Assembly: GCA_006503475.1 (NCBI GenBank)
Contig: RSEH01000033.1
Span: 146,096 to 210,095 of the forward strand
Direction: 5' to 3'
DNA from: Stentor roeselii
Taxonomy: Eukaryota > Ciliophora > Heterotrichea > Heterotrichida > Stentoridae
Length of the DNA stretch: 64,000 nucleotides
The translations under genes and the position numbers were made by a program. How positions within the stretch are numbered: position 1 is the stretch's first letter; every line of letters begins with the position of its first letter. Below are positions 16,547 through 39,398 of this stretch, in pieces. The notes under the pieces were generated by a model. That model saw only the letters and a program-made list of their open reading frames with translations. It searched no databases and had not been told where the DNA came from.

Positions 16547-18604
16547 ATGAATTGTCTTGTTGAACCCAATTGCGATTGTGAACCTAAATTTTACTGTTAC
16601 TGCTCAAACATCTACATTTGCGAAAGCCATCTAGGAAGACACGTCAGCTTTCAAGGGAAACATTACTATTACCCTTTAATCAAGTCTTTAGAACAAGAGG
16701 CTCTCACAATCAAATTAAAAAGTTGGATCAAATCCTTAGATAACTTGAAATTCGAGATATTTAAAGGAACCAAGGAACTTATCAAGATTATTGAAAATAG
16801 TTACACGAAAAGAGTAGCTAAAATCATTGAATTGACGAATAAATGTTTTTCAACTTTATTGCAAATTGAAGAAAATCAAATAAATAGTGAAATTGAAATT
16901 GAACTCCAATCAGAGATCAAAAAAATTGTTGTTGATGTTCAAATATTAGGTGAAAAAATATTGGAATTTGATCGAGGTTTTTTTGAATCGAGATTAAATT
17001 CTAACCAACCTAATCATTTTCCTGAACCTGAGGAAACTCTACCCAAACATCAAATAACTCTAAAAAATGAAGTAAATTTAACTATACTTGAATCTAAAGA
17101 TCATAGTTTACCTGAAATAGTTCATTCAAATAAAAATCATAGTTTACCTGAAATAGTTCATTCAAATGATCTAAGTTTACCTGAAGTAGCTGATTCAAAT
17201 GATCATATTTTACCCGAATTAGCTCATTTCAATGTAAAAAATTGTTCTTACTGTGGAAAAGGTTTTTGCTTAGCCTGTTTCAAAAGTAAATTTCCGAAGA
17301 AAACATGCGAGCATATTATTTGCAATGAATGTAATGACAGTTCAAAAAATACTCAATCACAATGCATAAAATGCTGTGAAGTTTGCAAAGGGTCTAATTG
17401 CAATAAAACAAAATTGAAATGTAATCATTTTAAATGTGAAAATGCGAAACAAAACTCTTCTTGTAATGTTTGTAATCAATATCACATTTGCTATGAGTGC
17501 TTTAAACGTACTTTTAACAAATGCTCGCATGGTCTCTGCGATAAATGCTGTACTAATAGGAAATGTTGTGATAATGGAACATGCGAACATTGCAAATCAA
17601 ATGTAAAAATATCACGTTCAAATGTTTGCCTCCACAAATGCTGCTTCAATTGTAAAACAATAAACAATTGCTCACTAACCTGCCGAAATTGCCAGAAGCA
17701 AGATAAAACAATATGCACCCATGGATATTGCCAATCATGTGAAACATTTTGCTTCGGTTGCTATTGTCAGCAATGCAAAAATAAGAGAAAAAAAGATATA
17801 GCATCTTGCCATCATTTAGTTTGTTTAAAATGCTTTAGAAATGGGTGTCTTTTCTGCAAAGAGAACACTTGCCATCATTTACTTATTTTACCAGATTCTG
17901 AAAATCCTCAAAACTTTCCAGAAGAAATTCAAAATCATCTTGAAATTGATGACTTTGAAGAAAATATCAGTAAAGGAAGGGAAAAATCTTATTCTTTAGT
18001 TCCTCAGAAATTGATGGAAAAAGATCATGACCTTTGTGATTCACCGAAAAGTGATAAAGCTTTGAATTCCTTTGAAGAATTAAAATTTGAGACAAGTTTT
18101 AAGGATTCTTTAGAGAAAGGTTCGGATGATTTGGAAAAATGTGAAATTTTTGTACTTGCTAAGGAAGTTGATCATGAATCAGAGGAGAAAAAGAAAGAAG
18201 ATAATGAGGAGAAAAAGAAGGAAGATAATGAGGAGAAAAAGAAGGAAGTTGATCATAAATCAGAGGAGAAAAAGAAGGAAGATAATGAGGAGAAAAAGAA
18301 GGAAGTTGATCATGAATCAGAGGAGAAAAAGAAGGAAGATAATGAGGAAAAACAGAAGGAAGATAATGAGGAAAAACAGAAGGAAGATAACGAGGAGAAA
18401 AAGAAGGAAGATAATGAGGAGAAAAAGAAGGAAGATAACGAGGAGAAAAAGAAGGAAGATAATGAGGAGAATAAGAAGGAAGATAATGAGGAGAAAAAGA
18501 AGGAAGATAATGAGGAGAAAGTAGATTTGATTGGAAGTAGTCAGAATAGTGAGGATGATGCTGATCCAGATGGAAAAGAGCTGCAAGAAAAAGAGGATTT
18601 ATAG
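16547..18604 (+). CDS. B-box/RING-like cysteine-rich protein with Lys/Glu repeat tail
   Basis: A 685-residue protein of the local cysteine-rich family. Residues 1-45 form a B-box-like zinc finger (CDCEPKFYCYCSN, then CESHLGRH). Residues about 55-155 are predicted coiled coil. A Ser/Pro/Glu repeat (HSLPEIVHSN units, about 185-232) leads into a zinc-finger array (about 232-445) rich in C-x2-C and C-x-H pairs. That array is clearly related to the C-terminal array of the 2474-residue protein at 28786 (shared KFPKKxCxHxICxxCN and TQSQCIxC). Residues about 545-660 are an almost pure EEKKKEDN repeat. The ATG follows TTATAA directly and the stop is TAG. Function unknown; B-box plus coiled coil plus RING-like fingers recalls TRIM-type ubiquitin ligases, but no finger is a textbook RING. 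Confidence 0.82.
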   Translation: MNCLVEPNCDCEPKFYCYCSNIYICESHLGRHVSFQGKHYYYPLIKSLEQEALTIKLKSWIKSLDNLKFEIFKGTKELIKIIENSYTKRVAKIIELTNKCFSTLLQIEENQINSEIEIELQSEIKKIVVDVQILGEKILEFDRGFFESRLNSNQPNHFPEPEETLPKHQITLKNEVNLTILESKDHSLPEIVHSNKNHSLPEIVHSNDLSLPEVADSNDHILPELAHFNVKNCSYCGKGFCLACFKSKFPKKTCEHIICNECNDSSKNTQSQCIKCCEVCKGSNCNKTKLKCNHFKCENAKQNSSCNVCNQYHICYECFKRTFNKCSHGLCDKCCTNRKCCDNGTCEHCKSNVKISRSNVCLHKCCFNCKTINNCSLTCRNCQKQDKTICTHGYCQSCETFCFGCYCQQCKNKRKKDIASCHHLVCLKCFRNGCLFCKENTCHHLLILPDSENPQNFPEEIQNHLEIDDFEENISKGREKSYSLVPQKLMEKDHDLCDSPKSDKALNSFEELKFETSFKDSLEKGSDDLEKCEIFVLAKEVDHESEEKKKEDNEEKKKEDNEEKKKEVDHKSEEKKKEDNEEKKKEVDHESEEKKKEDNEEKQKEDNEEKQKEDNEEKKKEDNEEKKKEDNEEKKKEDNEENKKEDNEEKKKEDNEEKVDLIGSSQNSEDDADPDGKELQEKEDL
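17095..17232 (+). repeat. In-frame Ser/Leu/Pro/Glu tandem repeat
   Basis: About four copies of a unit encoding D/N-H-S-L-P-E-I-V-H-S-N. The first two copies are nearly identical at the DNA level and the later ones have diverged. It forms a flexible linker between the coiled coil and the zinc-finger array of the 16547 gene. Confidence 0.75.
18175..18522 (+). repeat. 24-nt minisatellite encoding EEKKKEDN
   Basis: A purine-only-like tandem repeat with unit GAGGAGAAAAAGAAGGAAGA plus TAAT (24 nt), repeated about a dozen times. Some units are lengthened by a GTTGATCATGAATCA insert, giving a longer higher-order unit near the 5' side. It is in frame and codes for a highly charged tail. Copy number is likely to vary between alleles. 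Confidence 0.9.
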
Positions 18605-19697: not shown

Positions 19698-22600
19698 ATG
19701 AAATCCTGTAAAAACATCTGCATGATCCAAGACTGTCCAAACAAGCCCGAGTTCTACACAAACTATTCCCGTTACCACAAGTTCTGTTCCTCCCACCTTG
19801 CAATGATCTCATCATCAGACAAGACCTTATCCTGTTTTAACTGTTCAAACCTAATCCAATGTTTAAAAGACCTTCCATTACGCTTGATCTCCGATTACAA
19901 ATCCTCTCTAAAACTCTCAGACCCATTTGAAAATAAAGAAGGCCTTCCTGCCTCACTTCCATCATATCCTGCATCTTCTCCATCACTTCTCTCATCTCCT
20001 CCCTCATATCCTTCATCTTCTCCATCACTTCTCACATCTCCTCCCTCATATCCTCCATCTTCTCCATCACTTCTCACATCTCCTCCCTCATCTCTTCCCA
20101 TCCAAAAACTAAAATGTTCCTTCCGAGGCTGTACATCGACGAAAGCTAAAAAGAACTGTGACCAGCACAACCTCTGCCAACTTCACCTTCTCTCCAAAGA
20201 AGCAGGAGTCTTCTGCAGTCTCTGCCGATGCAATTTCTGCGGGTCTTTCGGAGTGACAATAAAAAAATGCGGTTCAAAGAGTTGCTCAAAAGACTTATTC
20301 CGTTTAAAGTGCTGTTACATCTGCTGCGCTCCTTCAAGTCACTCATCGCCCTGCGGTCACTTTCTATGTGACTTGGACCGTTCAAAGCTTTGTCCTTGCC
20401 TTCCTTGCGAGATCTGTCAAGTGGCTTCAGTGAAATCGAGACCTTGTGGCCATCGAGTTTGTGAAACTTGCGAAATTCAAGGCTTTTGCACTGTTTGCAT
20501 GATGGGAAATTGTGAGTCTTGTTCAATGTTTAGACCTTTGTATAAGTTTTCTTGTGGATTTCATTCGTTTTGTGAAAATTGCTTTTGGAATAAGAAATTT
20601 TGTGAACTTTGTAGACCGAATTGTTTTAGATGTAGAAATTCTTGGAGTGTTTTTGAAAGTTGTCAGGAACATCCTTTGTGTTTTGGATGTTTTGATTTGT
20701 TTAGTCCTGGATTTTGCCCTTTTTGTTTGAATGTTGAAGATTTTACTTGTGGAGAATGTCGTTTTTGCTTTCAGGAATTTGATCAGTCGCTTAATTGTGA
20801 ACATAGGGTTTGTAGAAATTGTGCTTTTTTGAAATGTGGACATGCTGAATGCCCTGATTGTTTTAGGAAGAGGGAGATTTGTGTCAAGTGCTTGCCGAGG
20901 CATTTTTGTGTGGGTTGTAAAAAAGTTGAGAAGGTGGATGAGTTCAGCTGTTCTCACGGTTTTTGTCAGAGCTGTGGAGAAAAAAATAATGATGAGCATT
21001 TTTCTTGTACCACTTGTGCAAGTCCAGAGTTTTGGGTGAACGGAAAATGTCTTAAGTGTCAAGACTCTTTTTGTAACTTTTGCTTGAAATTCAAAGAAAT
21101 TGACTCTTTTGGCTGCGGACATAAAATATGCCAAGACTGCTTCAAACCTAATGAAAAGTGTCGGATTTGTCAACCTTTTGAAATGTGTTTTTTTTGTGAA
21201 AATGTTAGACAAAGAGAAATTGATTCCTGTGAAAAACATAAAATTTGTAAAACATGTCGAGAACAGCTTGGAAATGGTTGTATTACTTGTCAAGGTATTG
21301 ATGAAGAATTTAGATGCAGTTTTTGCAGGTTTTACTATTCGAAGTGGAATATGAAAGAATTTGATTGTAAACATAAAGCTTGTCCTGGGTGTATGAAAGC
21401 CAATGAAACCAAATGCGAGCTTTGTGATTATTGTGAAGTTTGTCTCAATTATTACAAAAAACAATCTATTTCATGTAAACATGTAGTTTGCGAGAGATGC
21501 TCAGTAGAGCATCACACAGATCAGTGCATTATTTGCAATAAATCAGTTTTATTCTGTGAATCATGTCAGGTCTATCGAAAACCTTTAAAATGTCTGAAAG
21601 GTCATTTGATATGCATGGATTGTAGTCAGGATTTCAAAGAAAAGTTTGGAAATGATTGTTTTTTTTGTGACCCTCTCTGCTATTTTTGCCTAAAGAGCAA
21701 TCCAGTGATTCGTCCAACTTGTAAACATCTGATCTGCCAAGCCTGTTACGCCGAGCTATCCTCTCCAACCTCAAGCTGTCTTCTATGCGACCCTAGCACA
21801 ATCCGATGCGTCACCTGCAAAAAAATCTGTAATCCAAAAGAATTCTCAGAGCCTGTCTGTCCCCATCACAGATGTCTTAGCTGCTCAATGAAAGAACCTT
21901 GTCTGAAATGCGAAGACTTAAAAATAAAACAAATTTCTTTAACATTTGAAAAGAATCTTTCACAAAAAGAAGAATTTTCTGAGAATTTCTTGAAAATTGA
22001 ATGTTTTGGACTGTTCTGTGAAGACCACTTGTTGTCCAGATGCTTGACTTGTGACAAAAAGATTTGTATGCGAAATAATCAAGAAAAAGGAAAAAATCTT
22101 TGTTTTCAATGCAAAAATCAAGATTTTCAACAAGTTAAAGACTTAAACCTGGAAGTTTCTCGAAATTTAAATAGAAAAATCGAGGTTTTAAGAGAAATCC
22201 AGGAAAATTTACAGATAAAAACTCAAGAAATAATAAAAAATATCCAACAAGAATCCCTAAAAATTCATAAAAATCTAGAAAAACTTATTTCAGAAAATTT
22301 TTCTCTATTAAAAAACCTTTCAAGTTTAAAAGATTCTGAATTTCAGCAGATTTTAAGTAAAACTTATGTGAAATGTGAGATGATTCCTCTAAATTTATCA
22401 GAAATCAGCTCTTTCTTCAATCAAAAATGGTTCGAAGAAGCTGAACTCAACTCAGAGTTAGAAAAATCGATGAGACTTGAAAGATTCAAAAAAGCTTTTA
22501 AACCTTTCAACACTTCAGCGCTTTCCGGGAATTCCAAGTACTTCTCCTGTGAGTTGTTTGAAGGAATCATCACAGTCTGGGAACTTCCAAATTTTTCCAG

Positions 22601-24005
22601 TTTTAACTTGTTAGGACATGAGAAAAAAGTAACTTCTTTGAAGTTTTTTCATGAAAATTTGATAAGTTCTTCAGAAGATGGATCGATTTTAATTTGGGAC
22701 CTGAAAAGAAGGAATTTTGAAAAATTGAATTTTTATAGTTTTGGACCTGTTCTTGGTATGGGAGTGTCTGAGAAAAGGAATTCTTTGAGTTTTTTTACTT
22801 TAGATTTGAAGGTAAGGACTTTTAGTTTCGCGTCGAGGGAATTTATCATCAATAAAAGTATTTTTAATATACCTGAAAAGTACCTCTTTACTGATGACTG
22901 TGATTTTTTCATCATTTCTTGTAAAGACTCGATTAAAGTTTTCAAACTTCCTGATCTTCAACTACTTGATGTTCAACCCTTAGAGATATTGACAAGTGTT
23001 ACAAGTTTCTCTTATAACTCTTTGATGAAGAGTCTTTTTGTTATTCTCAGTAATGGAAGTTTGAAGGTTATCGACCTGAAAACCTTAAAAACTGTGAATT
23101 TTCGAAAAATCTTTGAAAATCAAATCGTTTCCACCTTTTTCGAATCAGAAGTTTTCTTGACCTTGACTTGCAATGGTATGATAAAAAAATACAATATTTT
23201 TACCTTAAAAGACTTAGGAAATATTTCTATTGAAATCCCAGAAATTCAATCAGGAGTATTTTTATCATCAACTCAAATATCAACACTAACAAAATCCAAT
23301 GAAATAATCGTGAAAGACCTTCAAAAACTCGAATCTTGTCATAAAAAATCAATAAAGCCAAAATTTTCAATAAGAGAAAATCTCAGATTTTCACTTCTCC
23401 ATATTTCAGAAGATCTCTTTCTTTTCGACCTTTCCTCTGAAAAATTGACTAAAATGGGTAAAATCAAAGGAACCCTGAAAACTTCAGGTTTTTCTTCAGA
23501 TAGTAATTCTTTTTTCGTGTGTTCTGATGAATCTTGCAAGGTCTGGACTGAAAACTTTCCTGAAACCTTTGAAATCAAGCCAAAGACCCGATTTGATTGT
23601 GCCGGGTTGTCTGATGACTCAAGTTTAGTCGCAGTCGCTGAAGGTTCTGATGTTTTTCTTTGGAATGTTTTAAAGATGCAAGAAATTCTTAGGTTTAAAA
23701 CTTTTCTTTTGATGGTCAGTGATCTTCGATTTTCGAGGAATAATGAAGTCTGCATCATTGCTGGAGATCATGGAAAAGTCGTTGTTTGGAATATTGGAAT
23801 TAATCAGATTTGGAAAAGTTTTCAGGGTTCTTTTGGAATGGCGAACATTTTTTATGTTCCTGAAAAACAGGGGATTGTCGCTTTTGGTGATGTTGGATTT
23901 GAAGTGTTTTGGTTGGGAGATGAGCTTGGTTTGGATGAGAGAGAAGAGGTTTTGAAGATTTTTAAAGGGAGGGGTAATGAAGGGATGAATAGTATTAAAT
24001 CTTAG
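19698..24005 (+). CDS. Giant Cys-rich RING-like repeat protein with coiled coil and WD40 domain
   Basis: A 1435-residue protein, first of three tandem paralogues. Residues 1-75 are the shared N-terminal domain (MKSCKNICMIQDC...NYSRYHKFC...CLKDLPLR). Residues about 85-133 are a Pro/Ser linker made of a 14-residue repeat. Residues about 138-790 are a continuous array of RING-like fingers (repeated C-x2-C...C-x-H-x2-C-x2-C). Residues about 805-895 are coiled coil, and about 915-1425 are a WD40-type beta propeller (LLGHEKKVTSLKF, LISSSEDGSILIWDL). The fusion of zinc fingers, coiled coil and WD40 is typical of scaffold or ubiquitin-ligase proteins that bind substrates through the propeller. The two downstream paralogues lack the WD40 part. 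The ATG follows AATAAAA and the stop is TAG. No intron is needed. Function is inference only. Confidence 0.85.
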   Translation: MKSCKNICMIQDCPNKPEFYTNYSRYHKFCSSHLAMISSSDKTLSCFNCSNLIQCLKDLPLRLISDYKSSLKLSDPFENKEGLPASLPSYPASSPSLLSSPPSYPSSSPSLLTSPPSYPPSSPSLLTSPPSSLPIQKLKCSFRGCTSTKAKKNCDQHNLCQLHLLSKEAGVFCSLCRCNFCGSFGVTIKKCGSKSCSKDLFRLKCCYICCAPSSHSSPCGHFLCDLDRSKLCPCLPCEICQVASVKSRPCGHRVCETCEIQGFCTVCMMGNCESCSMFRPLYKFSCGFHSFCENCFWNKKFCELCRPNCFRCRNSWSVFESCQEHPLCFGCFDLFSPGFCPFCLNVEDFTCGECRFCFQEFDQSLNCEHRVCRNCAFLKCGHAECPDCFRKREICVKCLPRHFCVGCKKVEKVDEFSCSHGFCQSCGEKNNDEHFSCTTCASPEFWVNGKCLKCQDSFCNFCLKFKEIDSFGCGHKICQDCFKPNEKCRICQPFEMCFFCENVRQREIDSCEKHKICKTCREQLGNGCITCQGIDEEFRCSFCRFYYSKWNMKEFDCKHKACPGCMKANETKCELCDYCEVCLNYYKKQSISCKHVVCERCSVEHHTDQCIICNKSVLFCESCQVYRKPLKCLKGHLICMDCSQDFKEKFGNDCFFCDPLCYFCLKSNPVIRPTCKHLICQACYAELSSPTSSCLLCDPSTIRCVTCKKICNPKEFSEPVCPHHRCLSCSMKEPCLKCEDLKIKQISLTFEKNLSQKEEFSENFLKIECFGLFCEDHLLSRCLTCDKKICMRNNQEKGKNLCFQCKNQDFQQVKDLNLEVSRNLNRKIEVLREIQENLQIKTQEIIKNIQQESLKIHKNLEKLISENFSLLKNLSSLKDSEFQQILSKTYVKCEMIPLNLSEISSFFNQKWFEEAELNSELEKSMRLERFKKAFKPFNTSALSGNSKYFSCELFEGIITVWELPNFSSFNLLGHEKKVTSLKFFHENLISSSEDGSILIWDLKRRNFEKLNFYSFGPVLGMGVSEKRNSLSFFTLDLKVRTFSFASREFIINKSIFNIPEKYLFTDDCDFFIISCKDSIKVFKLPDLQLLDVQPLEILTSVTSFSYNSLMKSLFVILSNGSLKVIDLKTLKTVNFRKIFENQIVSTFFESEVFLTLTCNGMIKKYNIFTLKDLGNISIEIPEIQSGVFLSSTQISTLTKSNEIIVKDLQKLESCHKKSIKPKFSIRENLRFSLLHISEDLFLFDLSSEKLTKMGKIKGTLKTSGFSSDSNSFFVCSDESCKVWTENFPETFEIKPKTRFDCAGLSDDSSLVAVAEGSDVFLWNVLKMQEILRFKTFLLMVSDLRFSRNNEVCIIAGDHGKVVVWNIGINQIWKSFQGSFGMANIFYVPEKQGIVAFGDVGFEVFWLGDELGLDEREEVLKIFKGRGNEGMNSIKS
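19962..20090 (+). repeat. 42-nt tandem repeat, three copies, Pro/Ser linker
   Basis: The words TCATATCC start at 19962, 20004 and 20046, a period of exactly 42 nt or 14 residues (SYPASSPSLLSSPP type). The coding strand is pyrimidine-rich (C/T) throughout. It encodes a proline-rich flexible hinge between the N-terminal domain and the zinc-finger array; the paralogues have a different short linker here. Confidence 0.9.
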
Positions 24006-24328
24006 AGGTCAAGTTTTAAATGAATGTAATAGAGCTAATAAATATATTTTTTATTATTAGAATTATATATTTTGATACCTTTAACAAAATTTTTAATTCA
24101 TTCTTTGTTTTGCTTGTTTTTAGAGCATGTTCTACCTTAATAAGAATTACTAATCCAAATAATTTATCATTATTCTCACAAGTATTCCTAGAATGAATAA
24201 TAAAAGCTTAAAAGCATTCAGTTCTTTCTAAAAATCAACTCTTAATCAAGAATTCCACTCGAAATTTCCACATCTGCTAAATTTTACTCTTAATTTTCTA
24301 ATGTTCTATATTTTCAAAGTCTATAAAT

Positions 24329-27300: not shown

Positions 27301-27424
27301 CATGCATCAAAAGATAATTAAGAAAAGGTTAATTTTACCGGATTATCAGAATTTGGAGAAATTTCAGAAAATTGAATCTTTTAAGTATGAAGAAGAGAAA
27401 AATGAAAGTGAATACAGAAATTAA
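24329..27424 (+). CDS. Giant Cys-rich RING-like repeat protein, second paralogue
   Basis: A 1031-residue protein collinear with the flanking genes. Residues 1-75 repeat the shared N-terminal domain (MNSCKNFCLISNC, NFTRYHSVC, CIKDLPLRNKAEYK). A Ser/Thr linker follows (about 83-112). The zinc-finger array runs from about 113 to 940, with blocks such as CSHLICKNCE, CGHKICSDCFE and CGIKAKDKHYFCNKCD that align one for one with the 28786 protein. Residues about 940-1031 form a charged coiled coil ending in EEEKNESEYRN. There is no WD40 domain. It begins at ATG 24329 within GTCTATAAATATG, the same start context as its downstream paralogue, which supports the start choice; the stop is TAA. Function unknown. 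Confidence 0.85.
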   Translation: MNSCKNFCLISNCQEKVTNYVNFTRYHSVCDSHLSSIEQLETSILCTNCNNEIQCIKDLPLRNKAEYKKSLLKSLKVDENKSKSSDLTQSPLTPVLITHKPTSSASLVATQSKCTWLKCNIKRNVRKTCEDHMLCENHFKAENFCTQCKCPTCSKFGVHLKKCGAKMCDNCAVKFECCFECCVKTVKNSLLKQKCNHFLCLACQRKRGYCLCKSCQICNNFESIDKNCSHLICKNCEIKGKCPICTTGTCESCGDLKPLDIYKCQIHSFCLDCEKNHKKCLLCPSICIRCNKNDSSEASQCKSHPLCEDCSKEFQKGFCVYCEDLQRFTCEACKKTFDTFSDNGCNHQICKNCSDLECGHRDCPTCLKEVGFCVKCQPSSFCTSCKKRRKNERISCFHGLCLECGILNKDEHYCCVTCGSHEYFKNGECLKCNGSICGNCQKIEEIPTYECGHKICSDCFEKQSICPLCLFEVECSYCEKTKISFYQSCRKHSCCLDCSISINTKNCLFCEGISENYRCSFCLFYYEKVEKLGCLHLACNGCLFINKNHCELCIECSICHKQSPKASLNCDHQVCQNCQNQSNNQDCLICNKTLTYCNICASFMKSTTCDKNHDLCIGCSKNFQKKYQDACFKCMSYCFYCKGTKEITMLDCRHTVCHDCNEMNIKSKCNCLLCKNSNTCNFCHKVYLDEGFIPLTCDHKICLSCPDKGPIKKCKKCKPRYFCIKCGKCDLKSRISCKHYLCEECGIKAKDKHYFCNKCDNTDNFYRGKCQNCAKRFTGYCKKCQYPHKVECKHSLCTECMYNFDICKYCYQELSCSMCNSKENSDKIICKIHKFCNTCQSQINREDCIICLNLQNEYRCMFCPKKTEKCKILPCGCKACKSCIAANRALCIRSTPCDKCGIVSHSKTFQKCIHKFCNSCKDSFARDSCFVCNSEKFEKKIKENLENLRKAQSFMKSIESDFRKKRKEMDREISEYEEKLNEKSQFDHLDPMHQKIIKKRLILPDYQNLEKFQKIESFKYEEEKNESEYRN

Positions 27425-28785: not shown

Positions 28786-31700
28786 ATGAAAAGCTGTAAA
28801 TCACTTTGCATGAAAGAAGGGTGCCAAGCGAAAGTGACGAACTACGTAAACTTTTCACGTTATCATGGAGTTTGCAATGAGCACATCAGTCTAGTCAACC
28901 AATGTGACACAACAATAACCTGCTTGAACTGTAAAAATGATATTCCCTGCATCAAGGACTTGCCCTTAAGAAACAAGTTGGAATACAAAGATTCTTTAGG
29001 TTTAAGAAAAACTCCATCAAGCACAACCCAAACCATTCAAAAAACGACCTCAGCCCGAACTTTACACACGAGGACCAATTCTGAATCATTTGAATCAATT
29101 GAAGGTAAATGCTCGTTCACCAGATGCAACATGAAAAAAGGACTAAGAAGAGGCTGTGAAGAGCATTTGTTTTGCAAGACTCATTTCAAAAAAGAAAACT
29201 TCTGCAGTATATGCAAATGCGGAGTTTGTTATAAGAATTATGGAGTGAATATTAAACAATGTGGAGGTAAAATCTGTGAAAGTTGCTCAAAGAAATATGA
29301 TTGTTGTGTTGAATGCTGCAAGTTAAATACAACTAATGTTCTTTTACCGAAATGTAGTCATTCTATGTGCCAGGGGTGCTTTTCAAAAAGAAAGTATTGT
29401 TATTGCAAAACTTGTCAGATATGTAAAGTCTCTGAGTCTCTCTCAAGGACCTGTTCTCATGCCATATGCAAAAAATGTGAATTCAACGGAAAGTGCACGT
29501 TTTGCTGTACCGGGACTTGTGAAGGTTGTGGACTTCAAAAACCTCTTGAAAAGTTTAAATGTCAGAAGCATTCCTTTTGCCAGTCCTGCTCGAGTTCTAT
29601 GCAAAAGTGCATCGTATGTCCTTCGGTTTGTCTTCGATGTAAAGAAAAAGAACCAAGTCAAAGTCCTCGATGCTTTTCTCATCCTTTATGTGAGGATTGT
29701 AATCTTTTCTTCACTTTGCCTGGATGTGTTTATTGCTATGGCGTTCAGGGGTTCACATGTGATCTTTGCGAAAATACTTTCGATACCTTTATGAAAACTG
29801 ACTGTCAACATAAAATTTGTGCCAAGTGCAGTTGTTTCAACAATAATCATTACGAATGCAGCATTTGCATAAAAGAACAAAAAATTTGTGTGAAATGCTT
29901 TCCGACTTTTTATTGTAAAAGTTGTAAAAAGATTGAATATCAAAAAGAAATCACCTGCATCCATAGTCTCTGTCCTGAATGTGGAATTAAAGAAAGAGAT
30001 GAACATTTTTTCTGTAAAAACTGTGACACTGAGAAATTTTTCTATCAAGGCGCTTGTTTGAAGTGCAGTGGATCGATATGTGCTGTTTGTGAAAAGGTTG
30101 AAAAGCTGCCAGAGAATCAATGCGGGCATAAGGTCTGCACTGACTGCTTTGAAAAAAATATGATTTGTCCTAAATGCTTGGTTTTGTGTTTTTGCTCTTA
30201 TTGTGAAAAATCCACCTCGGGTTTTCTTCAAAGTTGTAAAAATCATTATTGTTGTTTGGACTGTCGGATATATGTGAACGTTGAGGATTGTATCTTTTGT
30301 AAAGGAGATTCTGAGAAGTACAGGTGTAGTTTCTGTCAGTTTTATTATGGAAGTTTAAAACAATTAGATTGCTTTCATTTATCGTGCACTGGATGTTTGA
30401 CAGTAAATGAGAAAGATTGCGAGTTATGTGTCACTTGCTCCATTTGCAAAAATAAATCCTCAAAAGCATCCTTGAATTGCACTCATCAAATCTGCCAAGC
30501 CTGTCAGTCAATCAGCAAAGATGAAAATTGTATTCTCTGCAATTCCACATTTATTTATTGCAATATATGTCTTGATTATAAAAAATCTAAAACATGTGAA
30601 AAAAATCACATCACATGCAGCAGTTGTTCAGAAATAACATTAAAAAATTACCAGTTTGATTGCTTTGAATGCAAGTCTCTTTGCTTTTACTGTAAAACAA
30701 CCACTAATGTTTTTTTACTGGATTGCCGACACCCTATTTGCTTGAATTGCCATGAAAAGATAGTAAAAAATAAACTCTCTTGTCTTCTTTGTGATACAGA
30801 AGAAAGTCATATTTGTATGGATTGTGAAAGAGTATTTTTAAATGATAGATATCATTCATTTGCTTGTGGGCATAAAATTTGTGAGGCTTGTCCTTATAAA
30901 ATTGTTTGTAAATTGTGTTATCCGAAAAAAGTTTGCATTGGATGCAATTATTACAGTAGGGATAAAGAAATTGCATGTTCTCATTCATTTTGTCGGAAAT
31001 GCGGAATTAATAATAAAGATACTCATTACTTTTGCAATACTTGTGATAGTCAAGAATATTTTATTATTGGAAACTGTGAATTATGCAAAGAAATAGTTTC
31101 TGGATACTGTAAAAAATGTCATTTTGGTGAGAAATGTAAATGTAATCATATTACTTGCCAGTCGTGTACAAGTACTTACAAAATCTGCAGAATTTGTAGA
31201 CCTAAAGTGATGTGCTCTTATTGTGAGCTGATAACAGGTGATTACTCAGATCAATGTGAAGAGCATATCATTTGTATCACTTGCAAAGTTTCAATAAGCC
31301 ATGAGGAATGCATAAAATGTTTAAATATTGATTCAAATTATCGCTGCGAATTTTGTAAAAATTACTCTCAAGGAGTGATTCCAGTCGATTGCGGATGTTT
31401 AAGCTGTGAAAAATGCAAATTTGATGGAAAATCATTATGCCAGATCAGTACTCCTTGTACAATATGCAAAAAATTGTCTCATTCAATAAATAAATTTGAT
31501 TGTCTTCATACCTTTTGCAAGGAATGCTCCGATTTATACAACCAAACCTCTTGTTCTATCTGCTCCGAAATTTTAATAAATTGTAATCGCTGCAATAAAT
31601 ATAAAAACTCAAAACGATGCCATCAAAACCATTTAATATGCAAGACTTGTTCAATTAACTACCAGGAAATATGCGGATTCGAATGCATTGATTGCGAAAA

Positions 31701-34700
31701 TCAATGTCAATTTTGTTTAGAGATAAAAATAGTCTATTTCAAAGATTGTCCTCATCCAATCTGTCAAAGTTGTCATCAAGATTTTCTTCCTCTTGATATA
31801 AAATGTTTAAAATGCGAGAAAAATGAAGATAACACCTGCATGAAATGTAATAAAACATTAAAATCTGAAAAAATAAGAACTTTTAAATGTGAACATCGAC
31901 TTTGCTATGACTGCTGCCCTGATGAAAAATGTAATTCATGTGAATATTTGAACTGCTCTGTATGTGAAACTGAATTTACAAAAGAAAATTGGAGAAAATT
32001 TAAGGAAGAAATGGAAAAACAGGTGGAAGGGGGTCTTTATTCTAGTTGTAGTCATCTGCTATGTTCTAAGTGTTGGAAAACTTCATGTGAAACTTGCGGG
32101 GAAAACATGTGCGAAGCCTGTCTACGTGAAATTTATCCAAATAAAAAATGCTTTCATTCAATTTGTGTCAATTGCAATAAATCAGCTGAAAATTTTGAAA
32201 TTCAGTGTTTGTTATGTTATCCTTGCGCTTTGTGTAATAAATATGATTGCAAAAGATTCGCGATGGGGTGCAGTCATGTCAACTGTTCTAATTTAGAACT
32301 TAAAAATCAATGCTTTATTTGCAGTCCTTTTAACTATTGCAAAAAATGTTTAAAGCAAAATAATGAAATTTGTAGTCATGGACTTTGTCAGACTTGTATT
32401 GAATTAGAGAGTCATCAACAATGTGCTTTTAGAAGTTGCTATTTATGTTCAAAAAAAATTTTAATATTAGTGTCGGAAGTTTCTCAAGATTATTTCTTTA
32501 AAGGTCCTTTATGTTCAGACTGCTTGAAAAATGGTGAGTGTGCTTATTGTCATGAAAATAATGAAATATTTCTTCAGAAATGTCAGAACCACAATTGCTG
32601 TCTTAGGTGTTATTGCCTCATAGAAGTAAATGAATGCATATTTTGTAAAAATGTTGAAGAAAGTTATAGGTGTAGCTACTGTAAACTTTACTATACTAAA
32701 ATAGAAAAACTAGAATGTGTTCATTCGTCATGTTATAAATGTCTAAGCTTTAATCAGGATGGATGCCATCTGTGTGTTAACTGCTCCATTTGCAACAAGA
32801 GATCAGAAAAAGCATTTTTAAATTGCGATCATCAAATCTGTCAAGATTGTCAAGGCTTCAGTAAAGATGAAAAATGTCTTATATGTACCTCTACATTTAT
32901 TAAATGCAATCTTTGCAGAGCATATAAGAAATCTAAAAAATGCGAAAAAAATCATATAATATGCAGTGAATGCTCAGAAATTACTTCAAAAATATACGAT
33001 TTCGAGTGTGTTAAATGTAAATCTTATTGCTTTTACTGTAAGGTCAGTGCAAAGGTTGCATCACTTGAATGTAGACATCCAGTTTGTGAGAATTGTTTTG
33101 AAACTATCAATTTGAATCATTTATCTTGTCTACTTTGCGATACAAAAGAATTTCATAGTTGTATTGATTGTAGCAGGGTGTTATTTGATGATCAACTTAT
33201 AAAACTTAGTTGTGGCCATAAACTTTGCAATTCATGTCCTTTTAAAACTGTTTGCAAAGTTTGTCATCCGAAACAAGTCTGTATCAGTTGCCATGTTTAT
33301 AGTGAAGATCAAGAAATAGCCTGCTCTCACTCATACTGCCAACAATGCGGAGTAAAATCTAAAGATGTTGATTACTTTTGCCAAATGTGTGACAGTGAAA
33401 AATATTTCATCAAAGGAAACTGCGAAATATGTCACAACTTTATTTCTGGATACTGCAAGCGATGCTCTTTTCCAGAAAATCTAAAATGTGAGCATCAAAT
33501 TTGTTATTCCTGCACCATGGAAGCCAAAACCTGCAAAAAATGTTTTCCACCGATGGAATGCTCTTATTGCGAGATTACAACAGAAGATTATTTAAATGAA
33601 TGTAAAGATCACATCATTTGCAAAGCCTGCAAAAATTCAATAAATCAAGAAAAATGCATAAAATGTTTAAAAATTGATCTCAATCATCGCTGCAACTTTT
33701 GTTTAAAATATTTTGAAGTCTTGAATAAATTAAACTGCGGATGTTTAACCTGCAAAGTTTGCAGTGATAACGGAAAAGATTTCTGTAAAATTAGCACCCA
33801 ATGTGAGATTTGCACTAAAATTTCTCATCCAATTAGAAATAATTCTTGTGAACATAATTATTGTGAGACATGCTCTGATTCTTTCAGTTATACTTCTTGT
33901 CCCATTTGTGATAAAATTTTAGTGACTTGTGAACGCTGTAGAAAATATAAAAAATCTAAAACTTGCAAGAATGGCCATTTGATGTGTGAAGAATGTTCAG
34001 AAATAAATAAAATATCATGCGGAATAGACTGCATTTTTTGTGAGAATAAATGTGAATTTTGTCTTAATATCAAAATATTACATTTCAAAAATTGTGATCA
34101 TGCAATTTGTCAGGAGTGTGATGAGGATTTTACTAATCTTCACATTCGATGTTTAAAATGTGAGAGATGTGATGATTTTACTTGTATCAAATGTTCTAGA
34201 ATATTAAAAAATGATAAATTAAGGACTTTTGAATGTGGACATCGACTTTGTCATGAGTGTTGTCCAGATGAAAAATGCAATTTTTGTGAATATTTCAAAT
34301 GCTCTAGCTGTAAGTCTGAATTTAAAGCAGCAGATTGGGTTAAAATTATCAAAGAAAAGGAAAACCATAAAGAAAAGGAAGAAAATAATTTTTCCAAATG
34401 TGGTCATGAGCTCTGCTTGGAGTGCAGTCAAATTTCATGCACAATATGCAAGGATCTAATGTGCCTAACATGTTTATCTGAAAAGTACCCGAACAAGCAA
34501 TGCAAGCATCCGATTTGTGTTCACTGCAATGAATCTGCTCGAAATTTGAACTTACAGTGCTTGCTTTGCTATCCTTGCAAGGTGTGCACACGAAATGATT
34601 GCGAAAGAAGTTTAAGACCAGAATGCAGGCATGTTAATTGCTTTTACTTCGAATCAAGTCTTGATTGTTTTACTTGTAGACCTTTTAAGTTTTGTTGTAA

Positions 34701-36210
34701 ATGTTTTCAACAAAAGAGTGAAATTTGCAGTCATGGAATTTGCCGAAATTGTTTCAAAGATGAAAAATGTGAAGGGTGTTATTTTGGAAGTTGCCAATCA
34801 TGCCAAAAAGAAGAATTTTTATCAAAATCAATAGTTTGTAAACATCAATATTGTGGAATCTGTTTGCAACAGAATAAATGTCTTACCGCATGCAAATATT
34901 GTGGAGATTCTAAATCAATAGGTATTGACTTGTGTCTTCATAACTATTGCAAAAATTGTATCAAAAATTGCAAGACCTGCTACTGTCTTCAGTGTAACTC
35001 AATTAAAATTTTAGAAAATTCATCATGCGGCCATCAAATTTGCAAAGATTGTGAAAAAAATTCATGTGAATTTTGCAAAGGTTACTTTCGAGTTTATGAA
35101 GAACGAAAGATAATTGATTTAAGCTTACAATGTCGAGTATGTATGAATAACTTTGCTGAAAAAAGTAATTTTATTGATGGAAAATGCTCCGCTTGCCATT
35201 TAGTAAATGAGAATGAAATCATATCTCAAAATAATAAAGTTGATGAAAAATGCATGATTTGTAAAGACTCATTTTGTATCATGTGCTGTCAAGAAAAATT
35301 TCCAAAAAAGATATGTAATCATAAGATTTGTGTTAAATGTAATCGTATTGCTTTTGACACCCAATCTCAATGCATTGAGTGTAAAATATGTCAAATTTGT
35401 GGTGAATACAATTGCTATAGAAATATGTGTGATAAATGCAAAAAACCGAAGTGTAGAAAAGCAAAAATTAATGGATGCTATTCTTGCTCAAATAAGCAAA
35501 TATGCCATAAATGCTTTGGTAGTTTTCATTATTTTTGTTGTCATCATTTTTGCAATACTTGTAGTAAAAAAAATGATTGCTGTAAAACGAAAAAGTGTGA
35601 TTATTGTTTATCATTTATGCTTGTAACCAAATCAGAAAATTGTGAACACTTGTATTGTAAGTACTGTTTTATTCAAAAAAAATGCTTAGTACAATGCTCA
35701 AATTGTAAAACACAACATACAAAAAAATATTGTAAACATGGTTTTTGCGGAAAATGTTATCTCTCTTGCCCTGAATGCTTTTGTCAACAATGTAAGAAAA
35801 GTAATAAACCTGAAGACAAATTTTTGTGTGAACATTATATTTGCAACAATTGCTCAAGTTCTGGATGTAATTTTTGCAAATCAGAGATTTGTTCTCATTC
35901 GATAAAAGAAGACTATAAACATTTATATAAACAAAAAGTAGGTGAAAATTATGTGTTATTATCAAAAATTAAAGAAAATACTTTGAATTCTATTGAAAAA
36001 GTTGAATTGATTCTGGAAAAACTGAAGGGTAATTTAAGAATGATTGATGAAGAAATGGAGGTCTATGATTCTATTCATGAAAAAAATTTCGATGATCAAA
36101 ATGAGTTAGATCAAAAGATTTTAAAAAGCAATTTAGTTATTAAAGAAGAAAGTTTTACTATAGAAGAAATCAAGGAACTTTGCAAAATATTCTCTTTTAA
36201 TTATGAATAA
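28786..36210 (+). CDS. 2474-residue Cys-rich RING-like repeat protein with internal duplication
   Basis: The largest gene here. I place the start at ATG 28786 (MKSCKSLCMKEGC), because both paralogues begin at the same residue and GTCTATAAATATG is conserved; an ATG at 28774 would add only four residues. Order: shared N-terminal domain (1-75), linker (78-110), zinc array (110-470), a long unit A (about 470-1250), its tandem copy B (about 1251-2030), and a C-terminal array plus coiled-coil module (about 2080-2474). Units A and B align throughout, from CSYCEKS / CAYCHEN to EICSHGLCQTC / EICSHGICRNC. The fingers follow C-x2-C-x(9-14)-C-x-H-x2-C-x2-C with one to two Cys per eight residues. The last ~180 residues closely match the end of the minus-strand gene at 37080. 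No signal peptide or membrane segment is seen. Function unknown. Confidence 0.85.
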   Translation: MKSCKSLCMKEGCQAKVTNYVNFSRYHGVCNEHISLVNQCDTTITCLNCKNDIPCIKDLPLRNKLEYKDSLGLRKTPSSTTQTIQKTTSARTLHTRTNSESFESIEGKCSFTRCNMKKGLRRGCEEHLFCKTHFKKENFCSICKCGVCYKNYGVNIKQCGGKICESCSKKYDCCVECCKLNTTNVLLPKCSHSMCQGCFSKRKYCYCKTCQICKVSESLSRTCSHAICKKCEFNGKCTFCCTGTCEGCGLQKPLEKFKCQKHSFCQSCSSSMQKCIVCPSVCLRCKEKEPSQSPRCFSHPLCEDCNLFFTLPGCVYCYGVQGFTCDLCENTFDTFMKTDCQHKICAKCSCFNNNHYECSICIKEQKICVKCFPTFYCKSCKKIEYQKEITCIHSLCPECGIKERDEHFFCKNCDTEKFFYQGACLKCSGSICAVCEKVEKLPENQCGHKVCTDCFEKNMICPKCLVLCFCSYCEKSTSGFLQSCKNHYCCLDCRIYVNVEDCIFCKGDSEKYRCSFCQFYYGSLKQLDCFHLSCTGCLTVNEKDCELCVTCSICKNKSSKASLNCTHQICQACQSISKDENCILCNSTFIYCNICLDYKKSKTCEKNHITCSSCSEITLKNYQFDCFECKSLCFYCKTTTNVFLLDCRHPICLNCHEKIVKNKLSCLLCDTEESHICMDCERVFLNDRYHSFACGHKICEACPYKIVCKLCYPKKVCIGCNYYSRDKEIACSHSFCRKCGINNKDTHYFCNTCDSQEYFIIGNCELCKEIVSGYCKKCHFGEKCKCNHITCQSCTSTYKICRICRPKVMCSYCELITGDYSDQCEEHIICITCKVSISHEECIKCLNIDSNYRCEFCKNYSQGVIPVDCGCLSCEKCKFDGKSLCQISTPCTICKKLSHSINKFDCLHTFCKECSDLYNQTSCSICSEILINCNRCNKYKNSKRCHQNHLICKTCSINYQEICGFECIDCENQCQFCLEIKIVYFKDCPHPICQSCHQDFLPLDIKCLKCEKNEDNTCMKCNKTLKSEKIRTFKCEHRLCYDCCPDEKCNSCEYLNCSVCETEFTKENWRKFKEEMEKQVEGGLYSSCSHLLCSKCWKTSCETCGENMCEACLREIYPNKKCFHSICVNCNKSAENFEIQCLLCYPCALCNKYDCKRFAMGCSHVNCSNLELKNQCFICSPFNYCKKCLKQNNEICSHGLCQTCIELESHQQCAFRSCYLCSKKILILVSEVSQDYFFKGPLCSDCLKNGECAYCHENNEIFLQKCQNHNCCLRCYCLIEVNECIFCKNVEESYRCSYCKLYYTKIEKLECVHSSCYKCLSFNQDGCHLCVNCSICNKRSEKAFLNCDHQICQDCQGFSKDEKCLICTSTFIKCNLCRAYKKSKKCEKNHIICSECSEITSKIYDFECVKCKSYCFYCKVSAKVASLECRHPVCENCFETINLNHLSCLLCDTKEFHSCIDCSRVLFDDQLIKLSCGHKLCNSCPFKTVCKVCHPKQVCISCHVYSEDQEIACSHSYCQQCGVKSKDVDYFCQMCDSEKYFIKGNCEICHNFISGYCKRCSFPENLKCEHQICYSCTMEAKTCKKCFPPMECSYCEITTEDYLNECKDHIICKACKNSINQEKCIKCLKIDLNHRCNFCLKYFEVLNKLNCGCLTCKVCSDNGKDFCKISTQCEICTKISHPIRNNSCEHNYCETCSDSFSYTSCPICDKILVTCERCRKYKKSKTCKNGHLMCEECSEINKISCGIDCIFCENKCEFCLNIKILHFKNCDHAICQECDEDFTNLHIRCLKCERCDDFTCIKCSRILKNDKLRTFECGHRLCHECCPDEKCNFCEYFKCSSCKSEFKAADWVKIIKEKENHKEKEENNFSKCGHELCLECSQISCTICKDLMCLTCLSEKYPNKQCKHPICVHCNESARNLNLQCLLCYPCKVCTRNDCERSLRPECRHVNCFYFESSLDCFTCRPFKFCCKCFQQKSEICSHGICRNCFKDEKCEGCYFGSCQSCQKEEFLSKSIVCKHQYCGICLQQNKCLTACKYCGDSKSIGIDLCLHNYCKNCIKNCKTCYCLQCNSIKILENSSCGHQICKDCEKNSCEFCKGYFRVYEERKIIDLSLQCRVCMNNFAEKSNFIDGKCSACHLVNENEIISQNNKVDEKCMICKDSFCIMCCQEKFPKKICNHKICVKCNRIAFDTQSQCIECKICQICGEYNCYRNMCDKCKKPKCRKAKINGCYSCSNKQICHKCFGSFHYFCCHHFCNTCSKKNDCCKTKKCDYCLSFMLVTKSENCEHLYCKYCFIQKKCLVQCSNCKTQHTKKYCKHGFCGKCYLSCPECFCQQCKKSNKPEDKFLCEHYICNNCSSSGCNFCKSEICSHSIKEDYKHLYKQKVGENYVLLSKIKENTLNSIEKVELILEKLKGNLRMIDEEMEVYDSIHEKNFDDQNELDQKILKSNLVIKEESFTIEEIKELCKIFSFNYE
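30195..34880 (+). repeat. Intragenic tandem duplication, two units of about 2.34 kb
   Basis: Unit A (about 30195-32537) and unit B (about 32538-34880) encode collinear polypeptides of about 780 residues. Matching landmarks include ASLNCTHQICQACQ versus AFLNCDHQICQDCQ, KKSKTCEKNHITCSSCSEI versus KKSKKCEKNHIICSECSEI, and FKCEHRLCYDCCPDEKCN versus FECGHRLCHECCPDEKCN. Protein similarity is high while the DNA has clearly diverged, so the duplication is old but constrained. Smaller repeats (CGI...KD.HYFC...CD modules) are nested inside each unit. Confidence 0.85.
35690..36210 (+). repeat. Inverted repeat arm 1: shared C-terminal module
   Basis: The 3' end of the 28786 gene. Its sequence is matched, in opposite orientation, by the 3' end of the gene at 37080-39398. 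Both encode CKHGFC-KCYLSCPECFC, NCSSSGCNFCKSEICSHSIK and a coiled coil ending in a C-K-F/I-FSFxYE motif. Several stretches (for example around 35728-35780) look almost identical at the DNA level. Confidence 0.88.
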
Positions 36211-37079
36211 GAGTTAGATTGATTTAGTATAGATTAAAAGAATAATAATTTATAGCTTTATATAATTTGATTCCGAAATTAACCATCTTGATGCATTTTG
36301 ATTAATAAATTTGATTTATTAGTATAATTGTTTTCTAGATTTATGATCAAATGCTTTTGAATATTATCAAAATATTTGCTGCTTTTAACTATTGATATAT
36401 TCACTTAAGTAAGAAAATTAAATATAACACCAGAAATTTTTATAGAATAAGGAATATTAAAACTATTAAACTATTATATGAATATCTATCTATAAAAAGT
36501 CAAAAATGATTATCTATGCAAATATGCTTTTGTGATTATAGTTTTAATAATTTATACTAAAAAAAAGGAGAATATATGTAAAATATTAAACTAATGTAAA
36601 TAGATTTATTAGTAAGATTTTCGATCAATTTCTGATGAATATTAAAATTAATGAGTTTATAAATGAAATTGTAATTTATTAATAGAGGTTTATGTAGATG
36701 GTCATTCTGATTTTATGATTATTATTATTTTACGTGATACTAATACTTTAACTCAAATATCTAGGTAAATATATTACAAAATAAAAATACGTATTGAAGT
36801 TTTTAAAGAATTGAATAATTTTTATATGTTAAACATTAATAAATAAACCTATTATAGTCTGCAGATCAAAAATTTATACAGGATTATAAAAATGAATCAT
36901 CAACATAAATAAATTGAAATCGTAATTCAGCAGATATAACAAGCTGTACTTAATAATAAATTAATTTTTGTAAAAATCCAAAATCTAAAATAGATAATAA
37001 TTTGTACATATAAAAGTTATAGGAAGGAACAGTTGTGTAAAGGAAAAGTTATTTGAAGGCACTAAAATTATTAATAATC
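36211..37079. other. AT-rich spacer between convergent genes
   Basis: An 869-bp, very AT-rich spacer between two genes whose 3' ends are inverted copies of one another. It must contain both transcription ends. I see no gene or clear repeat in it. Confidence 0.6.
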
Positions 37080-37600
37080 TTATTCATAGCTAAAAGAGAA
37101 CATCTTGCAAAGTTCATTTATTTCTTCTGTCATCAAACTTTCTTCCTTTAAAGCCAAATTACTTCGCACAATCTTTTTATCTAACTCATTTTGATCATCG
37201 AAACTTTTATCATGAATAGTATCGTAAACTACTAATTCTTCCTCAACCTTTCTTAAATTTCCTTTTAGTTTATTGAGAATAAATTCAAATTTTTGAGTAG
37301 AATTCGAAGTATTTAGTTTAATTTTTGATAATGAGAAATAATTTTCACCTACTTTCTGTTTATATAAAGGTGTATAGTCTTCTTTTATGGAATGAGAACA
37401 AATCTCTGATTTGCAAAAATTACATCCAGAACTTGAGCAATTTTTGCATATATTATGTTCACACAAAGTTGACTCTTGATTTATATGGCTACTGTTGCAA
37501 TTTTGGCAAAAGCATTCAGGGCAAGAGAGATAACATTTTTCGCAAAAACCATGTTTACAATATTTTTTTGTATTAGATACTTTACAATATGAGCATTGAA
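37080..37600 (-). repeat. Inverted repeat arm 2: shared C-terminal module
   Basis: Mirror-image counterpart of 35690-36210. It encodes the zinc-finger and coiled-coil C-terminus of the 37080-39398 gene. The arms are separated by about 870 bp, so the pair forms a large imperfect inverted repeat. Confidence 0.88.
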
Positions 37601-39398
37601 CTAATTTCTGAAGTTTTTCAACACTTTGACTACTCAAAGTATTCATAGTATCAAATTCCCTTAGTATTTGAGAATGAACTTGATCATTCTTTATTGCAAT
37701 CTTTGTAATTTTTTCGTATTCGTTTTCTTTTTGAATCAAAGCCTCACTTTTCTCATCAAGTTTCTTCTGAAGACTTATAATTTCATTTTCTTTGAGGATT
37801 AAGATATCATTGTTATCGTTCAATTGTTTTCTAAGACTATCATTATCTGCTTGTTGAAGACATAAGAAGTGACTTTCCTCATCAAGTTTTTTCTGGAGAC
37901 TTATAATTTCATATTCTTTGAGGATTAAGATATCATTGTTATCGTTTAATTGTTTTCTAAGATTATCATCATCTGCTTGTTGAAGACATAAGAAGTGACT
38001 TTTCTCATCAATTTTCTTTTGGAGACTTATAATTTCATCTTCTTTGTTGATTAAGATTTCATTGTTATCGTTTAATTTTTTTCTAAGACTATCATTATCT
38101 GCTTGTTGAAGACATAAGAAGTGACTTTTCTCATCAAGTTTCTTTTGGAGACTTATAATTTCATATTCTTTGAGGATTAAGATATCATTGTTATCGTTTA
38201 ATTGTTTTCTAAGATTATCATTATCTGCTTGTTGAAGACATAAGAAGTGACTTTTCTCATCAATTTCTTTCTTCGCGCTATCAAATTCCTCTTGAAATTG
38301 AATCAAAAGAATACTATTTTCTTCTAGTTGTTTGTGAAGATTATCACAATCTATCTGCTTCAAATTTAAGGATTTATTTGTATTATCAAGTTCTTTTTGT
38401 AAACAATCTAATTCATATTGATTTTGAATCAATAGATTTTTAGTTTCATCTGCTAATTGTAATTGAAGACTGTCACATTCAGCCTGTTTAATATTTAAGG
38501 ATTGACTTAACTCATCAAGTTTTTTCTTACAAATATCCAAATCATATTGCTTTTGATTTAATAAAATACTGTTTTCATCAAGTTTTTTCTTACAAATATC
38601 CAAATCATATTGCTTTTGATTTAATAAAATACTGCTTTCATCAAGCTGCTTTAACAAAGTATCACATTCTGCCTGTTTAAGTTCCAATGAGTGATTTTTC
38701 ATTTCATTTTCGTTCTTTATATTGTCTAATTCAATTTGCTTTTGTATAAGCATATTGTTATTTTCTTCAACTTGCTTGAGAAGAGTGTTTAATTCCTTGT
38801 TTTTGTTGTTTGAAACAATGCTATTTTCAATGTATTTACTTTTAAGATTATCAAGGTCATCTTCGCGCTGAGATAGAACTTGACACTTCTCATCATATTG
38901 TTTTCTAAGTAATTCTATATCATTGTTCTTAATTCTCAATGCTTCTTTATTTTCATCTAGTTCCTTTGCAATCTTTTCACTTTTTTCAGATGAATCTTTA
39001 AAAGTATCAGAGATTTTCATGTCTTGACAAATAATTCCTGCCTCTCTTAAAATATTAGAGATTTTTTCCTTATGGTATGTTTCCGATTTAAATTCAGTGA
39101 TATGCTTCAAATTTTGATTCGCAGATTTAAGGAACTTGATTGATTGATTACTAGCTCTTTTCAGTGCCTTAATGATTTGCTCAGTTTCTCTCGAAATCTT
39201 GGTGATGCAAAATTTGATCTGGGTTTTCAATAACTTTAGGAAGATTAGTCTCAAATCTTCTGGGCTTAAAAACTTTTTCAAATGGCCTGTTTCTTTCTTA
39301 TGGTTAAAAAAATGAAGCCCGCAGAAATATATATCTAATGGGCAGGATTCACAAGAAGAGTCTATTTCTTCTCTGCAGCCTTCGTAGATGCAAGACAT
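37080..39398 (-). CDS. B-box-like, long coiled-coil protein with shared zinc-finger C-terminus
   Basis: A 772-residue protein. Residues 1-45 form a B-box-like finger (CIYEGCREEID, CESCPLDIYFCGLHFFNHKK). Residues about 50-130 are helical, and about 140-590 are a long heptad coiled coil. Within it, residues about 380-551 contain four copies of a 42-residue unit (LDEKSHFLCLQQADNDSLRK...), which is exactly six heptads. The C-terminal ~180 residues are the zinc-finger and coil module shared with the 2474-residue protein. The start ATG follows GGCTATAAA and the stop is TAA. The architecture suggests an elongated, probably dimeric scaffold with zinc-binding ends. It looks like a product of domain shuffling; the biological role is unknown. 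Confidence 0.84.
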   Translation of the reverse strand: MSCIYEGCREEIDSSCESCPLDIYFCGLHFFNHKKETGHLKKFLSPEDLRLIFLKLLKTQIKFCITKISRETEQIIKALKRASNQSIKFLKSANQNLKHITEFKSETYHKEKISNILREAGIICQDMKISDTFKDSSEKSEKIAKELDENKEALRIKNNDIELLRKQYDEKCQVLSQREDDLDNLKSKYIENSIVSNNKNKELNTLLKQVEENNNMLIQKQIELDNIKNENEMKNHSLELKQAECDTLLKQLDESSILLNQKQYDLDICKKKLDENSILLNQKQYDLDICKKKLDELSQSLNIKQAECDSLQLQLADETKNLLIQNQYELDCLQKELDNTNKSLNLKQIDCDNLHKQLEENSILLIQFQEEFDSAKKEIDEKSHFLCLQQADNDNLRKQLNDNNDILILKEYEIISLQKKLDEKSHFLCLQQADNDSLRKKLNDNNEILINKEDEIISLQKKIDEKSHFLCLQQADDDNLRKQLNDNNDILILKEYEIISLQKKLDEESHFLCLQQADNDSLRKQLNDNNDILILKENEIISLQKKLDEKSEALIQKENEYEKITKIAIKNDQVHSQILREFDTMNTLSSQSVEKLQKLVQCSYCKVSNTKKYCKHGFCEKCYLSCPECFCQNCNSSHINQESTLCEHNICKNCSSSGCNFCKSEICSHSIKEDYTPLYKQKVGENYFSLSKIKLNTSNSTQKFEFILNKLKGNLRKVEEELVVYDTIHDKSFDDQNELDKKIVRSNLALKEESLMTEEINELCKMFSFSYE
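37740..38270 (-). repeat. 126-nt tandem repeat in coiled coil, four copies
   Basis: The word GAAGACATAAG recurs at 37856, 37982, 38108 and 38234, an exact 126-nt period (42 codons, six heptads). The copies are highly similar, so expansion is recent or kept uniform by conversion. The period keeps the coiled-coil register, so copy-number changes alter the rod length in fixed steps. Confidence 0.92.

Follow-up and report, generated by a model that had tools for sequence, protein, structure and literature searches.

Tandem genes for candidate poly-RING scaffold proteins in the ciliate Stentor roeselii

A cluster of finger-array genes

The DNA considered here, called the window throughout, is a stretch of 64,000 nucleotides from the heterotrich ciliate Stentor roeselii (GenBank assembly GCA_006503475.1, contig RSEH01000033.1, positions 146,096 to 210,095 of the forward strand); it lies within contig C237 of the genome searched for relatives (44.4 Mb, 522 contigs). 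The window harbors a cluster of five genes, P0001 to P0005, whose products carry arrays of small cysteine- and histidine-containing fingers. All five are uninterrupted open reading frames (ORFs) and were confirmed at the positions originally predicted for them. The features of the cluster, in window positions, are the following.

16547..18604, plus strand: P0001, 685 residues, with an N-terminal B-box-like ligand pattern and coil-like stretch, a RING array and an acidic KE-repeat tail
about 17267-17857, plus strand: RING array of P0001 (residues 241-437)
19698..24005, plus strand: P0002, 1435 residues, with N-domain, RING array (11 strict fingers), coil-like stretch and WD40 propeller
19698..19922, plus strand: N-domain of P0002, with eight Cys/His invariant across 12 members
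20406..21911, plus strand: RING array of P0002 (residues 237-738)
22560..23873, plus strand: WD40 propeller of P0002 (about residues 955-1392; Pfam)
24329..27424, plus strand: P0003, 1031 residues, with N-domain, RING array (16 strict fingers) and short coil-like end
24860..27124, plus strand: RING array of P0003 (residues 178-932; residues 431-600 modelled)
28786..36210, plus strand: P0004, about 2474 residues, with N-domain, RING array and coil-like tail
29305..35877, plus strand: RING array of P0004 (residues 179-2369)
30193..32460, plus strand: copy 1 of the P0004 super-block of ~782 residues (about residues 475-1230)
32539..34800, plus strand: copy 2 of the same super-block (about residues 1257-2010)
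37080..39398, minus strand: P0005, 772 residues, with B-box-like N-terminus and coil, long coil-like stretch, two strict RING fingers and a tail common with P0004
37083..37604, minus strand: finger-plus-tail module of P0005 (residues 599-772), 73% identical to P0004 2306-2479

The five genes have modules in common, as the original prediction held. P0002, P0003 and P0004 stand in tandem, begin with the same domain of about 75 residues (the N-domain) and remain collinear over more than 700 residues, with pairwise identities of 38% between P0002 1-734 and P0003 1-710 and of 47% between P0003 1-933 and P0004 6-932. Their C-termini differ in the way that had been claimed: the WD40 propeller of P0002 passes the Pfam cut-off (30.0 against 27 bits), P0003 has a short end that looks coil-like by eye, and the array-plus-coil end of P0004 recurs in P0005, the identity of 73% extending over the last 174 residues of both. 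The array module is also present in part in P0001, whose residues 233-444 are 39% identical to P0004 2161-2376. The start of P0004 was placed at the ATG of position 28786, which aligns with the start of its paralogues, although a TTG (28771) and an ATG (28774) upstream are also in frame. All 13 ORFs inspected, called with the standard code, stop at TAA or TAG and none at TGA; in Blepharisma stoltei, UGA is given as tryptophan in a passage of PMC9942806. The two super-block copies of P0004 are 54% identical, and 22 of its 41 fingers have their best partner exactly 782 residues away; a weaker signal of the same kind is seen at about 341. Block duplication enlarged the arrays, as this super-block shows.

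The array fingers and their relatives

The C3HC4 RING consensus reads C-x2-C-x(9-39)-C-x(1-3)-H-x(2-3)-C-x2-C-x(4-48)-C-x2-C, and the array fingers follow its ligand order and spacing. A parser that allowed 5-16 residues in loop 1 and 3-14 in loop 2 found 105 RING-spaced fingers in nine of the 11 ORFs examined, against two at most in any of 200 composition-preserving shuffles per protein. Loop 1 has a mode of 10 and is shorter than 9 in 12 of the 105 fingers, while loop 2 has only 3 residues in four of them, which falls below the consensus minimum. Each finger spans ~35-55 residues, and there are from 2 to about 40 per protein in fixed order and register: the steps from the second finger of P0003 are 35, 37, 43, 52, 55, 38, 44, 37 and 82 residues, and those from the first finger of P0002 are 35, 37, 45, 50, 55, 38, 43, 39 and 82. 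In P0004, 32 non-overlapping and 41 overlap-tolerant fingers were counted, which are taken as lower and upper figures because in a few places one CxxC pair or one Cys belongs to two adjacent fingers. A profile built from four fingers retrieves RINGs of solved structure, and in a model of P0003 431-600, which covers four fingers, the predicted fold of one of them matches RINGs. Each repeat is thus shown, at the level of sequence, to be a compact C3HC4 RING-type finger, the cross-brace fold being predicted for one finger and presumed for the remaining ones; the earlier description of the array as not a textbook RING was wrong, because the fingers fit the RING consensus. In ligand order, spacing, profile similarity and the predicted fold of that one finger, they resemble the short-loop C3HC4 RINGs (Pfam PF13920, zf-C3HC4_3; PML, TRIM2/TRIM5), from which they differ in having dozens of fingers per chain in fixed register, in the depletion of the E2-contact and linchpin residues described below, and in Pfam scores under the cut-off for the cluster proteins scanned.

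The family of constant core and interchangeable ends that had been proposed was borne out, and it is bigger than the window shows. A search of the genome with P0003 revealed a second tandem cluster on contig C24 with three N-domain genes, as well as further N-domain genes on C481 and C287; P0006, in the C24 cluster, has 13 strict fingers and a WD40-like end (19.0 against a cut-off of 27 bits). When a five-row profile was compared with 5.8 billion proteins, a single match at E <= 10 appeared among 2424 candidates: P0132, a protein of 1194 residues from a metagenomic contig with an N-domain and 23 strict fingers. A single-sequence search with P0003 found no relative at E <= 0.001 among 1753 candidates, and no viral relative was confirmed. 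Searching the Stentor roeselii genome with P0132 gave 17 matches on 13 contigs, ten of which were examined (C196, C240, C374, C499, C16, C69, C92, C102, C178 and C228; C234, C472 and C503 were left aside together with second matches on C102 and C499), and one more array, on C313, was found through PF13920. All eleven of these contigs have 2 to 10 strict fingers, and with C237, C24 and C287 they bring to 14 the contigs on which arrays were read.

It is very improbable that these genes form an ordinary ciliate RING/TRIM-like family that is merely unannotated here. The RING profile matches and the one metagenomic relative are in agreement with such a family, but the profile search, whose word-based sensitivity is limited, returned that single protein from a database that includes Blepharisma and Fabrea proteins, and a wheat survey counts 1272 RING domains in 1255 proteins with a maximum of four per protein (PMC8169666). 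Among the matches listed in the open-licence literature, none on tandem or multiple RINGs, ciliate RING or B-box proteins or Stentor ubiquitin resembles these arrays, and none describes a ciliate family that combines this N-domain with such arrays.

E2-contact residues and the scaffold interpretation

Ordinary RINGs contact the ubiquitin-loaded conjugating enzyme (E2~ubiquitin) through a hydrophobic residue at C1+2, a proline at C7+1 and a basic linchpin after C8. This linchpin can be His, Lys or Arg, according to a passage of PMC11992055. The array fingers were compared with 48 control RINGs of the same genome, namely 29 from the top 30 PF13920 matches and 19 from 20 lower plus-strand ones that were picked, among 141 listed, none of them in either tandem cluster; L031 and L060 were left out, the parser having found no unit in them. 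The hydrophobic, proline and basic features occur singly in 36, 31 and 36 of the 48 controls and in 14, 10 and 18 of the 105 array fingers, control counts that are lowered by a wrong last pair in L047 and L057, a wrong first pair in L075 and the inclusion of L073, which is part of the C196 array gene. All three residues together are found in 22 of the 48 controls and in none of the 105 array fingers, also when His is counted as linchpin (Fisher 1.3e-13, a value that overstates independence, since array fingers and controls are related by sequence). In six other array proteins, P0132 among them, 0 of 61 fingers have them, and in six more array pieces 0 of 17. Most array fingers are therefore shown statistically, as judged from these positions, to lack the residues with which E2~ubiquitin is bound and closed, and the complete residue signature of active RING ubiquitin ligases (E3s) is absent from them.

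The same depletion weakens the part of the original prediction that saw in these genes a ubiquitin-ligase family. Active multi-RING E3s, in which several fingers would each load an E2 for highly processive ubiquitination while WD40 or coil ends pick the substrates following a COP1/TRIM-like logic, are rather unlikely. RING spacing and predicted fold fit such ligases, and so do the array-coil-WD40 order of P0002, the similar order of P0006 with its sub-cut-off WD40, and three less degenerate fingers of the 105 (P0003 215, P0004 437 and P0004 1678) in which the first two residues of the signature are still present; against this stands the absence of the full signature from all three sets of array fingers. 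COP1 and TRAF7 are RING plus WD40 ligases and share the order RING, coil, WD40 with P0002 and probably P0006, in which, however, 11 and 13 strict fingers precede the coil. TRIM pseudoligases have one RING per chain in the order RING, B-box, coil, whereas in the ciliate proteins the RINGs form arrays, preceded by the B-box-like module in those that have one. The likeness lies in a RING skeleton that is retained while the E2~ubiquitin or dimer interface has diverged, as a passage of PMC11992055 describes for TRIM6, TRIM15, TRIM22 and TRIM51. By analogy, the poly-RING proteins would be an array version of these pseudoligases.

The residues between the ligands are informative as well. Position-matched fingers of five paralogues (95 pairs) share a fraction of 0.246 of their non-ligand residues, compared with 0.086 for 2882 unmatched pairs and 0.091 for 1118 pairs within one protein. 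Every position along the array has residues of its own, a pattern in better agreement with specific surfaces than with bulk metal binding or homogenisation. A zinc store or buffer, with P0004 as a giant metallothionein-like protein, is highly doubtful: the composition of P0004 (418 C and 88 H) would suit it, but non-ligand residues are shared about three times above background, the spacing is that of folded RINGs, and storage would have no need of a cap, a coil or a WD40 end.

The ratio of non-synonymous to synonymous substitution rates (dN/dS) was obtained in eight comparisons, of which four had usable dS, one was near saturation and three were saturated. Values of 0.45 for the P0004/P0005 tails and of 0.27-0.32 for the P0004 super-block and two pieces of it were found in the usable ones, and dN and dS of 0.31/2.53 for the N-domains in the nearly saturated one; no ratio above 1 was seen in the eight, three of them saturated and one nearly so. 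A diversifying recognition family, in which the array would be a variable sensor in defence, self/non-self or mating-type recognition and the ends its effectors, found no support here and is improbable. Tandem clusters on two contigs, swapped ends, members dispersed over many more contigs and one gene with a frame break speak for it, but these ratios and the conservation of finger register and position-specific residues point the other way; a role in defence or mating is speculation.

The array is most likely a zinc-stapled repeat scaffold, because most fingers have lost the residues binding and closing E2~ubiquitin, and there is about an even chance that these are intracellular poly-RING proteins acting as multi-finger scaffolds of this kind rather than as ordinary ligases. 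Each finger would present its own surface, so that the rod might bind several partners together. Judging by architecture, the N-terminal cap domain or the B-box-like/coil module may serve assembly, and the C-terminal WD40 propeller, coil or membrane segment may determine target choice or location. Ubiquitin transfer, if any, could be left to the few less degenerate fingers or to ordinary ligases recruited to the scaffold.

Several observations weigh against the scaffold interpretation. Of the 50 structural matches listed, 49 fall on the fourth and last finger of the model, the first modelled finger is poor, with a predicted local distance difference test (pLDDT) score of 51-61, and the Foldseek search with the finger model gave no match at E <= 0.001. 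The cluster proteins scanned (P0007 and P0010 were left out) are all below the Pfam RING cut-offs, with best scores of 21.0 against 27 bits for Prok-RING_4 and 16.6 against 27 for zf-C3HC4_3, and of 19.4 against 21 for zf-C3HC4 in P0006, whereas in the related array gene on C196 one finger reaches a cut-off (27.2 against 27) and a C313 finger scores 26.0. The matched pairs behind the value of 0.246 were set by sequence alignment, and common descent alone raises their identity. The 48 controls came from a search with a RING model and are biased towards canonical RINGs. Loss of the signature is not proof of inactivity, because some active RINGs are without a basic linchpin, as a passage of PMC11992055 reports for TRIM32.

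A broader proposal is that the RING can be a true repeat-protein scaffold like ankyrin or leucine-rich repeats, with lineage-specific, catalytically silent poly-RING rods whose position-specific surfaces make them modular platforms in this heterotrich and its relatives; this is possible, although its chances fall somewhat short of even. To our knowledge, almost all known RINGs are ligase modules, of which a protein has one or a few. If the proposal were true, the RING fold could serve as a building block of long repeat scaffolds, with up to about 40 per chain, and RING counts in a genome would overestimate ubiquitin ligases.

Terminal modules and neighbouring genes

In the N-domain, C8, C13, C30 and H33 are invariant in 12 of 12 members. 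They agree with the first zinc site of the SBP domain (plant SQUAMOSA promoter-binding proteins, PF03110), C-x4-C-x16-C-x2-H, with exact spacings in nine of the 12 rows, the C196 row and two C313 rows deviating in the first gap. The second SBP site is C-x2-C-x3-H-x11-C, whereas in the N-domain C46 and C49 are invariant and no invariant His or Cys follows; the Pfam score is 19.3 against a cut-off of 27 bits, and no SBP structure is among the fold matches listed. The order C-x4-C ... H-x2-C-x2-H ... C-x2-C also recalls the variant RING of HEI10/CCNB1IP1, a likeness confined to the N-domain and accompanied only by weak sequence and Foldseek matches (E 0.33 and 0.54).

The beginnings of the family recur in two kinds, either the N-domain (C196, C313) or the B-box-like module plus coil (C499, P0001, P0005). 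In P0001 and P0005 the B-box-like ligand pattern comes first, whereas the B-box is second in the TRIM/RBCC order of RING, B-box and coiled coil. No Pfam B-box was detected in P0001-P0005 at E <= 10; with 12 members of the module, no B-box family was among 25 of the 28 families matched at E <= 1, and of 19 PDB sequences at E <= 1 (best 0.009) none bears the name of a B-box protein. A large family of this genome shares the N-terminus of P0005 with its B-box-like and coil parts: at least 57 places, P0005 included, match it among 60 matches (58 of 159 candidates scored). In 20 of the 57 the start lies less than 12 kb from the low end of the contig, a hint of subtelomeric spread. Next to the array gene of C196, a protein encoded at L080 3135-5204 (minus strand) has B-box-like, coil and WD40 parts (by eye), that is, the same ends without the array. 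A C-terminal finger module with a CC...C..C pattern is shared by P0132 and the array sequences L087 and L090, and the C313 protein ends in a hydrophobic, membrane-like segment (both by eye).

In the second array gene of C24 (L016 5441-7009) the frame breaks near 6960 and array sequence continues in another frame, which may reflect gene decay, a frameshift or an error of assembly. On C481 (L018 1888-8068) the N-domain is combined with a coil-like stretch and no strict fingers, and GTPase-like ORFs lie next to it, one of them with an HSP20 match (20.4 against a cut-off of 20.8).

A VSP-like gene lies on the minus strand at both array clusters: in the window, a leishmanolysin fusion with Giardia-VSP-like cysteine repeats (10905-15221), and on C24, a protein of 2136 residues with such repeats (L015 2094-8504). 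Genes of this type may simply be common here. At 56098-62484 (plus strand) the window encodes a protein of 2128 residues with a GBP/URGCP-like large GTPase domain (GBP 34.5 against a cut-off of 21.1 bits) and a VWA match of 20.1 against 23.8, reminiscent of very large inducible GTPases. A GTPase neighbour common to both clusters was considered and rejected, the C24 neighbour being VSP-like and unrelated to the window GTPase. A UCHL5 gene adjoins the window cluster, its best named matches, among 120 of 4102, being those of Blepharisma stoltei (56% identity) and Fabrea salina (54%), with closer matches on metagenomic contigs, and a chitin synthase-like gene is located at 43781-45853 on the minus strand.
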